Below, piece after piece: positions 3,916-10,703 of a stretch of 64,000 nt of DNA. Origin of the DNA: DASRDR01 sp963812945 [NCBI: uncultured Candidatus Rokubacteria bacterium] (lineage in GTDB: Bacteria > Methylomirabilota > Methylomirabilia > Rokubacteriales); assembly GCA_963812945.1 (NCBI GenBank), contig CAWEXD010000008.1, positions 1,178,001 through 1,242,000 on the forward strand, read 5' to 3'. Numbering within the stretch: the first letter of the stretch is position 1; each line of letters begins with the position of its first letter. The notes beneath the pieces are model-generated. The model was not told the origin of the DNA and did not search any database. It worked only from the letters and a program-made list of their open reading frames with translations. The translations under genes were made by a program, and so were the position numbers.

Positions 3916-4665
3916 ATGAGCGGCGACGCCCTGACCTGGGCGGCAGGGCTGGCCGGCGTCGCGGCGGCCGCGTTCGTCAAGGGCACGATCGGCTTCGGCT
4001 TCCCACTGATCGCGACCCCGCTCCTCGCCCTCGCGACCGACGTGCGCACGGCCGTCGCGGCGCTGATCATCCCCAACATCGTGATGGACGGCGTCCAGGT
4101 CGTCCGCCGGCCCGGTGTCGTCGCGGCACTCCGGCGTCATGCGTCGCTGATCATCGCGGGAACCGTCGGGACCATCGTCGGCACGCGATTCCTCGCCGTG
4201 CTCTCGGGTGGAGGGCTGCTCGTGACCCTCGGGGCGACCGTGCTGGTGTTCGTCCTCCTGTCCGCCGTCCGGCCGGGCTGGCGCATGCCGGCGGGCGCCG
4301 AACGCCCGTTGGCGCCGCTCGTCGGCCTGGCCGCCGGCACGCTGGGCGGACTCACCAACACGCCCGGCGTGGTGCTGACCCCGTACTTCTTCGCGATCGG
4401 GCTTCCGAAGGCGGAGTTCGTGCGAGCGATCTCCGGCGCCTTCCTCGTGTTCAAGCTGACCCAGCTGGGGGCGGTGTGGCACGTCGGCCTGCTCGATTGG
4501 CGCGTCCTGCTCCTGTCGCTCGCCGCGTCGGGGGTGAGCCTCGCCGGATTCCATGTGGGGCTCGCGGTGCAGGACCGCGTCCCGCAGGCGGTGTTCAACC
4601 GCGCGGTGCTGGTCCTGCTGTCGGTGGTCGGGGTGGCGATGCTGGCCCGCGGCCTCCGGCCCTGA
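3916..4665 (+). CDS. TauE/SafE family sulfite or organic-anion exporter
   Basis: A 249-residue integral membrane protein with about eight hydrophobic segments. The N-terminal G-x-x-A-A-A-F-V-K-G-T-I-G-F-G-F-P repeat and the central G-G-L-T-N-T-P-G half-repeat are diagnostic of TauE/SafE (DUF81). The family exports or moves sulfite, sulfoacetate and similar small anions. ATG 3916 overlaps the stop of a 12-codon frame starting at ATG 3881 (ATGA); whether that short frame is translated is unknown. The gene sits 43 bases after the dehydrogenase and is convergent with the selenoprotein gene. The substrate is not predictable here. Confidence 0.85.
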   Translation: MSGDALTWAAGLAGVAAAAFVKGTIGFGFPLIATPLLALATDVRTAVAALIIPNIVMDGVQVVRRPGVVAALRRHASLIIAGTVGTIVGTRFLAVLSGGGLLVTLGATVLVFVLLSAVRPGWRMPAGAERPLAPLVGLAAGTLGGLTNTPGVVLTPYFFAIGLPKAEFVRAISGAFLVFKLTQLGAVWHVGLLDWRVLLLSLAASGVSLAGFHVGLAVQDRVPQAVFNRAVLVLLSVVGVAMLARGLRP

Positions 4666-4687: not shown

Positions 4688-5437
4688 CTACCAGACCGAC
4701 TGGGGGAGCGGGAGCCTCTCCAAGAGCGAGCGATCGAGCGGGACCGGTGGCGGCGCGCCGGCCTCGTCCAGGAGCGCGTGGATCTGGCGGAGATGCTGGG
4801 CCGCGTGCCACGTGGTGCGCTCGAGCAGCTCGTGGCCGGTCTGGGGGCCGTAGTAGGTCTCGACGGTCCCGGTGGCCGCATCCTCCTGCGAGAGCCACAG
4901 CCGGAGGGCGCCGCGCACTGCCGCGCCGTACCCCGCGAGCGCGGGGCCATCGGGCAGGCCGACAGGCGCCATCTCCTGAAGCCAGGTCTCGGGCAATCGG
5001 CGCTCGACCATGGCGTCGCGGAAGGCGAGGCTCAGCCGGAAGAGGTGATAGGCGAGCTGGTGGAGCGAGCGGTCGCGGCCGGGATGCTGGAGCGCGAGGT
5101 GTTTCGGCTCGACGACGGCGATGAGCCGACCCGCGGCGGCGAGGACCCCGTCGAGACGCGCCGCAAGGGCCGCCGGGGAGAGCCGCTCGACGCCCTCGTA
5201 CCGGACGCCGACGAGATCGGCGAGGGCGGTCGGGTTCCAGCCGTGGACCACTCCGCCGCGCGTGACGACGGCCGGCACGGCCGGCACGCCCAGCCGCGCG
5301 AGCTCGGCGCGCGCTCCGGGCTCGGCCTCGATGTCGACCGCGTCGAACGGCACTCCCCACGACGAGAGCAACTCTCTCGTCTTAGCGCAGGAGCTTCAGC
5401 CAGGGCGGTGGTAGAGGATCGCTTTACTATCAGCCAT
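4688..5437 (-). CDS. selenocysteine-containing glutaredoxin-like/DinB fusion protein (in-frame TGA = Sec14)
   Basis: Read from ATG 5437-5435 the frame gives M-A-D-S-K-A-I-L-Y-H-R-P-G, then TGA (5398-5396), then S-S-C-A-K-T-R-E-L-L. This is a glutaredoxin/thioredoxin-fold N-terminus with U14-S-S-C17 in place of C-x-x-C. The domain continues through V-P-F-D-A-V-D-I and the G-V-P-A-V-P cis-Pro loop (residues 50-55). Residues about 95-235 form a four-helix DinB-like domain with candidate metal ligands H131 (Y-H-L-F-R), H211 and H215 (W-H-A-A-Q-H). The total is 249 residues plus TGA. GGGGGAG lies 10 bases before ATG. A perfect 8-bp hairpin lies just after the TGA. An ordinary gene call would begin at TTG 5371 and lose the redox motif. 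The role is inferred: thiol/selenol redox or thiol-dependent transfer. The Sec machinery must be encoded outside the window. Confidence 0.87.
5361..5381 (-). promoter_or_regulatory. bacterial SECIS-like hairpin downstream of the Sec TGA
   Basis: In the mRNA the arms GACGAGAG and CUCUCGUC form a perfect 8-bp stem with a five-base AGUUG loop. The stem starts 14 bases after the UGA and the loop lies about 22 bases after it. Bacterial SECIS elements that bind SelB sit immediately 3' of the UGA inside the coding region, usually with a G and U in the apical loop, and this one matches. A short lower pairing (CUCC with GGAG) can extend it across an internal loop. Every base is also protein coding. 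Confidence 0.8.
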
Positions 5438-5523
5438 TTGTCGGTGACTCCCCCGAGGGCATCTTACCGCGGCGTGACCGTGGTTGCGGGGAGGTTGCGG
5501 ATGGTCGGGTCATCGAGGCATGC

Positions 5524-9266: not shown

Positions 9267-9422
9267 TCCGGATCTCCTTTCGACGTCGTGTCAGGTCGCC
9301 CGGCGCGGCTTCACGCTCGGGTCAGTTGGCGGTCGTATTCTACGCCGGCCGCGGTGGCGAGGCCAGGGGCCGCCGCGTGCCGCCGCGCCCTGGCCACGTG
9401 CGGCGTTACTCGATGATAAGAT

Positions 9423-9454
9423 GCGATCACGATCGCGGGGAGCCCAGTGATCGC
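9423..9454. other. 8-bp inverted repeat upstream of rhodanese gene
   Basis: GCGATCAC and GTGATCGC face each other across 16 bases, ending 15 bases before ATG 9470. It could be an operator or a leader hairpin; nothing more can be said. Confidence 0.35.
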
Positions 9455-9469
9455 AGCCAGAGAGCCCGA

Positions 9470-10384
9470 ATGCCGCGAACCCAGCTGATTCGTCTCGCCC
9501 TCTTCGCCGCCGTCGCGGCCACGGCGGTGGCCGGCGGACCCGCGCGAGGCCACGCGGCGGGACGGTACGCCAACCCCCAGCTGCTGGTCGAGACGGAAGA
9601 GCTGGCGCGCATGCTCGGAGCCCCGGGCGTGCGGATCCTCGATGTCCGCAGCGGGACGATCGGCGCGGTCGCCTACCGGACGGGCCACGTGCCGGGCGCG
9701 GCGTACCTGGACTGGAACGAGCTCGACGACCCGGCTGCCAATGCCGAGGGCCAGCCGATCCGTCCCGCCGCGGCGGCGGCGCTGTTCGGGCGGCTCGGCA
9801 TCGACCACGAGACGACCGTGGTGGCGTACGACACCGCGGATGGCGTGATGGCGGCCCGTCTGTTTTTCGCCCTCGAGTACTTCGGCCACGAGCGGGTCCG
9901 GGTACTGAACGGCGGCCTGGCCAAGTGGCGGCGCGAAGGCCGGCCGCTCGAGGTCGCGGCGCCGGCGATCACGTCCCGCCGGTTCGACCCGCGACCTCGC
10001 CGGGAGCTCGTCGCGACGGCCGCGGAGGTGCGATCGAGCCTCGGGCGGGCGGCCGTCTGCCTGATCGACGCCCGGAGCCCGGCGGAGTTCGCCGGGACGG
10101 ATCGCGGGGCGGCGCGGGGCGGTCACATTCCGGGCGCCCGGAACGTGGACTGGACGTGGACGGTGAACCCCGACGGGACGTTCAAGGACGCCGACGCGCT
10201 CCGGGCGCTCTTCGAGACCGCCGGCGTGCGGCCGGACCGGACGGCCGTGGTCTACTGCCAGAGCGGGGCCCGATCGGCGCACGACTACCTGGCGCTGCGA
10301 CTCCTCGGGCACCCGAGGATCCGGAACTACGACGGCTCGTGGATGGAATGGGGAAACACGCCGGCGCTGCCGGTCGAGAAGTAG
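9470..10384 (+). CDS. exported two-domain rhodanese (thiosulfate/3-mercaptopyruvate sulfurtransferase)
   Basis: A 304-residue protein with a signal peptide (L-F-A-A-V-A-A-T-A-V-A, cleavage near G-H-A-A). There are two rhodanese domains. The first (about 35-155) has L-D-V-R and Y-D-T-A at the catalytic loop, so it lacks the Cys. The second (about 170-300) has I-D-A-R-S-P-A-E-F and the active loop C263-Q-S-G-A-R. It moves sulfane sulfur from thiosulfate or mercaptopyruvate to a thiol or cyanide acceptor, here in the periplasm. A TusA-like sulfur carrier follows 80 bases downstream, suggesting a sulfur-transfer pair, although that protein is cytoplasmic. Confidence 0.92.
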   Translation: MPRTQLIRLALFAAVAATAVAGGPARGHAAGRYANPQLLVETEELARMLGAPGVRILDVRSGTIGAVAYRTGHVPGAAYLDWNELDDPAANAEGQPIRPAAAAALFGRLGIDHETTVVAYDTADGVMAARLFFALEYFGHERVRVLNGGLAKWRREGRPLEVAAPAITSRRFDPRPRRELVATAAEVRSSLGRAAVCLIDARSPAEFAGTDRGAARGGHIPGARNVDWTWTVNPDGTFKDADALRALFETAGVRPDRTAVVYCQSGARSAHDYLALRLLGHPRIRNYDGSWMEWGNTPALPVEK

Positions 10385-10417
10385 CGAGGACAGGCCCGGT
10401 GAGCGGCCCAGTGGGCC

Positions 10418-10440
10418 CACAGGCCGAAGGCCGTCCGATC
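10418..10440. repeat. 23-bp dispersed repeat, copy 1
   Basis: CACAGGCCGAAGGCCGTCCG followed by ATC is identical to bases 26362-26384. Both copies lie in the short gap just upstream of a GTG-started gene (TusA-like here, meaB there). Confidence 0.75.
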
Positions 10441-10463
10441 AACTCCCGCGGACCGAGGGTACG

Positions 10464-10703
10464 GTGGTGAGCGAAGTGCTGGAGCTCGACCTCCGCAAGG
10501 AGGTCTGCCCCTACACGTTCCTGAAGGCGCGCCTCGCGCTCGAGGCGCTGCCGACGGGCGCGCTCCTGCGTGTCCTCGTCGACAACGAGACCTCGGCCCG
10601 TGACGTGCCCCGGAGCCTGACCGCGGCGGGACACGCCGTTCTCGCGTGCGCGCCGGCCGGCGACGCCGTTTGGGCGATCCTGATCTGCCGGGGCTCGGCC
10701 TGA
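10464..10703 (+). CDS. TusA/SirA-like sulfur carrier protein
   Basis: A 79-residue protein starting at GTG 10464 (GTG 10467 is an alternative). The fold signature is L-D-L-R-K-E-V-C15-P-Y-T-F-L-K-A-R-L-A-L-E followed by G-A-L-L-R-V-L-V-D-N. This is the TusA family C-P-x-P-x-x-x-x-K motif with Tyr-Thr in place of the usual Pro. C15 would carry a persulfide. Family members relay sulfur (or, in the YedF branch, possibly selenium) to tRNA thiolation, molybdoenzymes or sulfur oxidation. It is placed just after a rhodanese, a typical sulfur donor. Confidence 0.88.
   Translation: MVSEVLELDLRKEVCPYTFLKARLALEALPTGALLRVLVDNETSARDVPRSLTAAGHAVLACAPAGDAVWAILICRGSA

Follow-up and report, generated by a model that had tools for sequence, protein, structure and literature searches.

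The question raised by this locus is whether an in-frame UGA in a gene of an uncultured Candidatus Rokubacteria bacterium is a stop codon or the active-site residue of a selenoprotein, and what kind of enzyme the gene would then encode. The window, that is, the whole stretch of 64,000 nucleotides of contig CAWEXD010000008.1 that was analysed, carries on its reverse strand a reading frame (5437-4688) that, by direct reading, is open except for a single TGA at 5398-5396. With this TGA read through, the protein, a fusion of a glutaredoxin with a DinB domain (Grx-DinB), has 249 residues and begins MADSKAILYHRPG-U-SSCAKTREL (M-A-D to R-P-G before Sec14). The preliminary description of this DNA had placed the TGA at the first redox position of a thioredoxin-fold motif, with continuous coding sequence on both sides; direct reading confirmed U-S-S-C at 5398, and the frame runs without a break from ATG 5437 to TAG 4690-4688. 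It had also stated that a gene caller would lose both the selenocysteine and the motif, as indeed happens with translation table 11, where the open reading frame starts at TTG 5371 and yields 227 aa without the active-site motif. Elsewhere in the 64-kb window, ARAGORN detected no tRNA, Rfam families all stayed below their gathering scores, and the further UGA read-throughs were motif matches only, none with coding-like support being seen. The features of the gene are listed in Table 1.

Table 1. Features of the Grx-DinB gene in the window (selenocysteine and metal-ligand roles are predicted).
Feature	Position	Strand	Description
Whole selenoprotein ORF, Grx-DinB fusion	5437-4688	-	ATG 5437 to TAG 4690-4688; UGA is codon 14
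Shine-Dalgarno-like GGGGGAG	5448..5454	-	10 nt upstream of ATG 5437; purine-rich; read by eye
Glutaredoxin domain	5252..5419	-	Residues 7-62; Pfam and fold matches
In-frame UGA (Sec14)	5396..5398	-	First residue of the UxxC motif U-S-S-C; sequence read directly
Cys17	5387..5389	-	Second redox residue of UxxC; invariant in 43/43 aligned members; putative resolving residue
SECIS-like hairpin GACGAGAG-AGUUG-CUCUCGUC	5361..5381	-	Loop AGUUG at 5373-5369, 22 nt past the UGA
DinB/YfiT-type helical domain	4733..5188	-	Residues 84-235; Pfam and fold matches
His131	5045..5047	-	Invariant; putative metal ligand
His211	4805..4807	-	Invariant; putative metal ligand (HxxxH)
His215	4793..4795	-	Invariant; putative metal ligand (HxxxH)

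Two Pfam families were recognized in the protein, namely Glutaredoxin (PF00462; residues 7-62, E 1.6e-13, 51 bits against a cut-off of 22.9) and DinB_2 (PF12867; residues 108-219, E 2.2e-5, 25.3 bits, barely above the cut-off of 24.8). Both match all 43 members (E<=0.01) of alignment A1, which comprises the window and 42 of the 45 loci found in a genome scan (see below), leaving out L040, L024, because it has a further in-frame stop, and L044, because its match covers residues 202-249 only. Invariant in this alignment are U/C14, S16, C17, E22, P55, H131, G197, R207, W210, H211, Q214, H215, R217, Q218, L242 and P245. Among these, P55 falls at the usual cis-Pro place of Glutaredoxin (by alignment position, the cis form being putative), and the H...HxxxH pattern formed by H131, H211 and H215 is kept in 43/43 members. 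Known DinB enzymes have an H...HxxxH pattern, and the three histidines are putative metal ligands here. Other Pfam families were rare among the 43 members: GST_N_2 matches only two and MDMPI_N also two, weakly (best E 0.0019).

An AlphaFold2 model, in which Sec was replaced by Cys, was predicted with a pLDDT of 91.1 and a pTM of 0.86. Its matches to solved folds form two sets, one of DinB/YfiT proteins over residues 84-235 (best 6iz2, Z 15.1, with seven further DinB-like entries at Z 13.3 to 14.5) and one of Grx/NrdH proteins over residues 3-79, the best Grx-type redoxin being 3zit (Z 13.8). The fold-search tool warns that helical bundles with Z below about 13 possibly share the general arrangement only. 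Among the solved folds none stood out as a match to the whole model, GST chains among the matches had TM-scores of about 0.3, and a search of PDB sequences with the DinB half alone gave no match. The junction of a redox domain with a DinB-like domain, as originally described, is thus found by Pfam in 43/43 members, and the fold matches agree.

When the Grx-DinB protein was scanned once against 84,980 species genomes, the 45 loci mentioned above were obtained, with TGA at the aligned codon in 31, Cys in 12 and two (L040 and L044) not reaching it. Records of Rokubacteria, Acidobacteria, SAR324 and Entotheonella account for 26 of the TGA loci and Proteobacteria for five. Profile searches found matches in at least 51 of 95 genomes in the phylum of G001, at least 32 of 385 in the class of G028, at least two of 369 in the class of G036 (centre included), at least one of 297 in the phylum of G017 (the centre itself) and five of five in the phylum of G013. 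From the larger groups a sample of genomes was searched, and the first-look candidates were scored in part (per genome at most 29 in the phylum of G001, seven in the class of G028, seven in the class of G036 and nine in the phylum of G017), so that absences in these genome searches are not firm. In the phylum of G001, 51 copies from 50 genomes include the glutaredoxin part and TGA is present in 51/51, while the class of G028 holds 19 copies with TGA and 14 without, 11 of which were read and have TGC or TGT.

Taking all fetched loci that reach codon 14 (n=132, including the window), 107 have TGA, 20 TGC and five TGT. Once duplicates with the same sequence over nt 61-400 of the match were discarded, 107 distinct sequences remained, with 83 TGA, 19 TGC and five TGT codons and no fourth codon, a pattern far beyond chance. 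This is the alternation of Sec (83) and Cys (24) at codon 14 for which an alignment of homologues had been proposed as a check, and neither Arg, Trp nor a real stop, which would have spoken against selenocysteine, occurs at this codon among the 107 homologues. Reading the TGA as a sequencing error for TGC was likewise ruled out by the 83 distinct UGA-bearing sequences.

Sec and Cys forms interleave on the trees of both 107 and 43 sequences. A quick tree of the 107, with the active-site residue masked, requires three Sec/Cys changes, and a careful tree of 43 requires four (bootstrap range 3-4; one-change trees, 0% of 200), although the strongly supported branches alone force one change on either tree. 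The window is placed among the Sec forms, its nearest relative found being L073 in G117, with 65% identity. Two distant full-length members on long branches, L093 (G046) and L133 (G1169), keep the TGA, indicating that the family extends beyond the main set.

If the UGA is decoded as selenocysteine, a bacterial SECIS element (bSECIS) would be expected just downstream of it. A hairpin resembling such an element, on which the preliminary description is silent, is present: in the window, a 49-nt stretch folds with -22.4 kcal/mol (z -3.5; 0/200 shuffles as stable). The published bSECIS model, as quoted in PMC13188914, specifies an apical loop of 3-9 nt with a G in the first two positions, an upper stem of 4-16 bp, a distance of 16-37 nt between UGA and loop, and an MFE of at most -7.5; we applied it with our own script, requiring at least four consecutive pairs and allowing one mismatch. 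The window passes this model with the loop AGUUG, a spacing of 22 nt and a stem energy of -14.9. So do 29 of the 61 non-proteobacterial-type UGA forms, 21 of the 22 proteobacterial-type UGA forms and two of the 24 Cys forms, against 11.1, 2.4 and 0.9 expected, respectively, from synonymous recoding. The element that passes lies at one position (hairpin 1) in 27 of the 29 and at another (hairpin 2) in 20 of the 21, the other three being elsewhere.

Each gene was also compared with random synonymous recodings that keep its own codon usage, over nt 13-39 after the UGA for hairpin 1 and over nt 28-51, with the loop CGUG, for hairpin 2, both intervals having been picked after looking at the folds rather than fixed beforehand. 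Hairpin 1 was significant (p<=0.05) in 37/61 non-proteobacterial-type UGA forms, 1/22 proteobacterial-type UGA forms and 0/24 Cys forms, and hairpin 2 in 0/61, 18/22 and 1/24, respectively, which leaves 24/61 and 4/22 UGA forms in which the hairpin of their type is not individually significant. An earlier recoding test over a single wider interval had given p<=0.05 in 19/31 UGA and 0/12 Cys rows. Most UGA forms, then, carry a bSECIS-like hairpin stronger than synonymous recoding predicts, and Cys forms rarely do.

Base pairing was counted on alignments of distinct 54-mers. For hairpin 1, in 53 UGA sequences, 89.2% of the cells are paired, and both the 21 cells changed on both sides and the covariation score exceed all 500 shuffles; two of the five measures do not exceed the shuffles (both-side-changed pairs, 442/500; further pair types, 500/500) and slid versions come near (a score of 0.147 at -3 versus 0.162; 17 cells at +1 versus 21). 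For hairpin 2, in 21 UGA sequences, 92.9% of the cells are paired, with three pairs and 11 cells changed on both sides; these 11 cells exceed all 500 shuffles, the covariation score exceeds all 500 shuffles and every slid version, and the further pair types do not exceed the shuffles (293/500). Among Cys forms, 38.5% (hairpin 1) and 47.9% (hairpin 2) of the cells are paired, with no excess of covariation save for the hairpin 1 score, which was reached by only 13/500 shuffles. Moreover, codon U+11 is NCG in 82/83 UGA forms, where it encodes Ser, Ala or Thr, versus 2/24 Cys forms, and since NCG is kept across three amino acids, the constraint acts on the RNA and not on the protein.

The hairpin is found at nt 15-35 after the UGA in Rokubacteria-type forms and at nt 30-48 in proteobacterial-type forms (e.g. 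L028, L096-L121). A single SECIS position fixed throughout the family was rejected, the proteobacterial-type loop lying about 15 nt further downstream. Because the hairpin is shifted between lineages while the UGA stays fixed, it looks as though one element was exchanged for another instead of being passed down.

Genes for selenocysteine synthesis and insertion are commoner in genomes with a UGA copy than in those with Cys forms only. In the first 45 genomes, selB was above its cut-off in 29/31 UGA carriers and 4/12 Cys carriers, and selA was found in 27/31 and 4/12, the UGA carriers without a full selA being G016 (a fragment at a contig edge), G017, G024 and G042; G024 and G042 have neither selA nor selB above the cut-off. 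A tRNA-Sec of at least 59 bits was present in 24/31 UGA carriers and 4/12 Cys carriers; this line is our own, drawn because the family cut-off was also passed in 5/14 control genomes. In the class of G028 (32 carriers), taken together with G622 and G036, selA occurs in 18/19 genomes with UGA (not in G130) and in 3/15 without, G424, which holds a non-UGA copy too, being counted among the 19. With both carrier sets merged and no genome counted twice, selA is present in 43/48 genomes with a UGA copy versus 7/26 with non-UGA copies only (Fisher p 7e-8, kinship ignored); the additional genomes surveyed for selA in the phylum of G001 are outside this count. Nearly all genomes of that phylum have selA (83/95; 45/50 with the fusion and 38/45 without), which is therefore non-discriminating there; the fusion genomes in which it is absent or a fragment are G016, G024, G042, G095 and G112. 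G117, the genome of the window's nearest relative, has selA at 602 bits.

On this evidence, codon 14 is almost certainly read as selenocysteine, with the hairpin just downstream directing the decoding. Were the UGA instead a real stop, the locus would be a pseudogene or two open reading frames and the similarity upstream a relic or chance; the further in-frame TAG of L024 does suggest that some copies may be decaying, but retention of the UGA in 83 distinct sequences with conserved residues on both sides refutes this as a general account, and with the hairpin and the Sec machinery also against it we hold it to be very improbable. Still less credible is a genetic code in which UGA is reassigned to another amino acid such as Trp or Gly: no support for it was found, the 107 distinct homologues show only Cys besides UGA at codon 14, selA/selB are present in most UGA carriers, and at 13 loci a TGA directly after the conserved C-terminal Trp looks like an ordinary terminator. 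It could also be that selenocysteine is indeed inserted and that the codon serves mainly as a selenium-dependent switch, translation stopping at codon 14 without selenium and an internal start possibly giving a product devoid of the glutaredoxin part. The in-frame TTG 5371 downstream of the UGA, which opens the 227-aa frame, is in keeping with such a switch, but its product would have no active site, and the Cys forms retain the same active site without any UGA, which indicates that catalysis rather than switching is conserved; this is an improbable account, though a better one than a stop or a reassigned code.

The gene product is most likely a redox enzyme that contains selenium, built from a selenocysteine glutaredoxin and a DinB domain whose metal site is probable, and its favoured function, judged from sequence and predicted fold, is most likely that of a metal-assisted selenol/thiol transferase or reductase. 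In the mechanism that we propose, the DinB domain with a divalent metal would bind and activate a small organic substrate or thiol conjugate, the selenol of Sec14 would attack this substrate, and Cys17 would then resolve the selenenyl-sulfide. Cellular reductants, be it a low-molecular-weight thiol or thioredoxin reductase, could recycle the Sec14/Cys17 pair. In this way a tethered selenol with its own resolving Cys would be supplied by the fused UxxC domain in place of a free thiol, and the self-contained selenol/thiol enzyme suggested in the preliminary description is a plausible prediction for Grx-DinB. The explanation as a whole, with a hairpin-directed Sec14, the UxxC of the glutaredoxin and the H...HxxxH of the DinB domain combined in a one-piece selenol-driven thiol transferase or reductase, is probably correct; for the class of activity by itself, a selenol-driven thiol transferase or reductase, we see the chances as evenly balanced.

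In the window, the Grx-DinB gene is preceded by a DUF192 gene in the same orientation, whose stop is 86 nt ahead of ATG 5437, and a TauE/SafE gene (3916-4665, forward strand) converges from the other side. Further away, at 9326-10703 on the forward strand, there is a double-rhodanese gene followed by a short gene that is TusA-like by eye. With a rhodanese, a TusA-like protein and a TauE/SafE exporter within 6 kb, the surroundings are possibly sulfur-related. Neighbours at other loci were obtained by GC3-based gene calling, which missed the Grx-DinB gene itself at eight loci. At 11 rokubacterial loci an enoyl-CoA hydratase-like gene is found upstream of Grx-DinB; at L002, L018, L020 and L022 it is the immediate neighbour (Pfam on L018). 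The proteobacterial neighbours include PEP mutase/ICL and aconitase (L027), MmgE/PrpD (L029), CoA-transferase III (L030), isochorismatase (L032), amidohydrolase (L025), TauD (L040, L099), a TctC receptor (L036, L106), SDR (L026, L105), a flavin oxidoreductase of the NADH:flavin oxidoreductase family (L109), a DSBA-like protein (L114) and ChaC (L035). Many of these families belong to carboxylate or aromatic catabolism, which is to be taken as a hint and not as a count, since the neighbours were hand-picked and differ at each locus.

The main rival to a thiol transferase or reductase is that the selenol of Sec14 is a built-in stand-in for the thiol cofactor of DinB enzymes, undergoing reversible addition to a metal-held acid that is unsaturated or electrophilic, with Cys17 acting only as a guard against oxidation; the reaction would be a cis-trans isomerisation or a conjugation. 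Fold matches that include maleylpyruvate isomerase (2nsf, Z 11.8) and mycothiol S-transferase (8f5v, Z 12.7) agree with this, as do several of the proteobacterial neighbours from families of small-acid or aromatic catabolism, e.g. MmgE/PrpD and CoA-transferase III. Both Z values, however, are under the warning line of about 13 for helical bundles, the neighbours vary by locus and were hand-picked (30 genes scanned, five of them from the window) with no counted association, and a UxxC motif with an invariant Cys17 is more simply explained by redox chemistry. We consider a built-in cofactor unlikely, if by some distance the strongest competitor, and retain the redox enzyme described above. A wider proposal is more tentative than the redox reading and we would lean slightly against it: Grx-DinB may be the first DinB-type metalloenzyme with a selenol of its own, replacing systems of a DinB protein and a free thiol in the breakdown or detoxification of small electrophilic acids, with a SECIS that has moved between lineages while the UGA stayed fixed.

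Among known systems, the glutaredoxin half is closest to the Sec glutaredoxins (PF00462) such as Grx1 of Clostridium (Alkaliphilus) oremlandii, with which it shares the fold and a Sec-first UxxC. Among solved sequences, the family profile comes closest to the glutaredoxin chain 7c10 (E 3.3e-15), titled dithiol cGrx1, which we take to be the clostridial Sec glutaredoxin, consistent with reference titles in PMC13188914. The known Sec glutaredoxin is a stand-alone small redoxin, whereas the domain described here is fused to DinB and NrdH/YruB-type models fit it best among NCBIfam. Twelve NCBIfam models match any of the 43 members at E<=1e-5, comprising redoxin models, including the HUGP/GUXX-star redoxin fusion, and the metal-binding-protein model TIGR03086 (three members); none of the 12 is by name a Grx-DinB model. 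All matching redoxin models score below their cut-offs on the window, the NrdH redoxin TIGR02194 with 37.1 of 85.75 bits, close in kind without making the protein a member. The HUGP/GUXX-star and UXX-star families (NF045501, NF041212, NF041114, NF041211, NF047338) are likewise glutaredoxin-like (seleno)protein modules, one of them fused, although, judged by name, its partner is not DinB. The window reaches 26.7 of 325 bits with NF045501 (HUGP/GUXX-star), over residues 4-63 only, and is also below the cut-offs of NF041212 (36.8/66), NF047338 (27.1/97), NF041211 (24.7/100) and NF041114 (12/72).

The helical half is similar in fold to mycothiol S-transferase (8f5v, Z 12.7, below the line of about 13) and to bacillithiol S-transferase YfiT/BstA (1rxq, Z 13.3), and the H...HxxxH pattern invariant in the Grx-DinB family is shared with DinB S-transferases. 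These enzymes use a free low-molecular-weight thiol, e.g. mycothiol or bacillithiol (PMC4360819), and the DinB enzymes described in PMC4360819 and PMC6815410 carry out S-transfer or isomerisation with such a thiol; no DinB S-transferase that is a selenoprotein or fused to a redoxin was found in the accessible portions of the open-access literature. The mycothiol-dependent maleylpyruvate isomerase 2nsf has a DinB-type fold (Z 11.8 over model residues 83-249, again below that line) but needs external mycothiol, and its MDMPI_N family matches only 2/43 Grx-DinB members. The GST-like selenoprotein of the Sargasso Sea (COG0625; PF13409) has, as here, a Trx-fold N-terminal domain with Sec; going by its table entries in PMC1088965 and PMC13188914, it is set apart by its helical part, which in Grx-DinB is DinB and not the GST C-terminal domain.

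A 2026 review (PMC13188914) sets out 119 families and subfamilies of prokaryotic selenoproteins in its Table 1; neither a DinB entry nor a Grx-DinB fusion appears anywhere in that table, and DinB has no match in the accessible text of the review. The fusion is not among the nine new families that the available text names for deep-Sep, and no report of it was found in open-access literature, judged in part by title and abstract, that included the accessible parts of PMC12013277, PMC4360819, PMC6815410, PMC1088965 and PMC1794560. That the family had not been described, as the preliminary description surmised, accords with its absence from the 119-family table and with the lack of a Grx-DinB model among the NCBIfam matches, and on the comparative evidence we judge Grx-DinB to be a new selenoprotein family.

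It would be a well-supported addition to the 119 families and subfamilies listed in PMC13188914, found mostly in metagenome-derived bacteria. At least 50 of 95 genomes in the phylum of G001 carry the fusion, each with the active-site UGA, so that gene calling that takes UGA for a stop is expected to drop the site, as observed for the window. Selenium is now linked to the DinB thiol-transferase superfamily; the family provides a natural set of Sec and Cys forms within one protein in which to measure what selenium buys, and its two hairpins, which lie at unequal distances from one and the same UGA codon, offer a test of how SelB reads SECIS position.

Some individual copies deserve mention. The Rokubacteria copy L024:5001-5642, from G024 with neither selA nor selB above the cut-off, keeps the TGA and has its extra in-frame TAG between the glutaredoxin and DinB domains; either the gene is decaying following loss of Sec or the assembly is faulty. 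In G424, the UGA copy C24 (L098) is accompanied by a non-UGA copy (C25:5259-5999), a useful within-cell comparison of Sec and Cys that could also be a mixed assembly. Matches to the DinB half only, from profile position 75-79, occur in the phylum of G001 (G093:C6, G094:C21, G043:C96, G095:C109 and G101:C214), and G092:C182 is a match of this kind with TAA; all of these genomes except G092 carry the fusion gene too. Judged by the profile matches, such copies are possibly stand-alone relatives ancestral to the fusion, or may have a diverged glutaredoxin part upstream. Finally, the metagenome bins of L029, L031, L032 and L039 carry the title Bordetella parapertussis, whereas in the 43-member tree L029 and L031 cluster with Zwartia and an uncultured beta-proteobacterium, L032 does so more loosely, and L039 falls elsewhere, placements which suggest that these titles are wrong.
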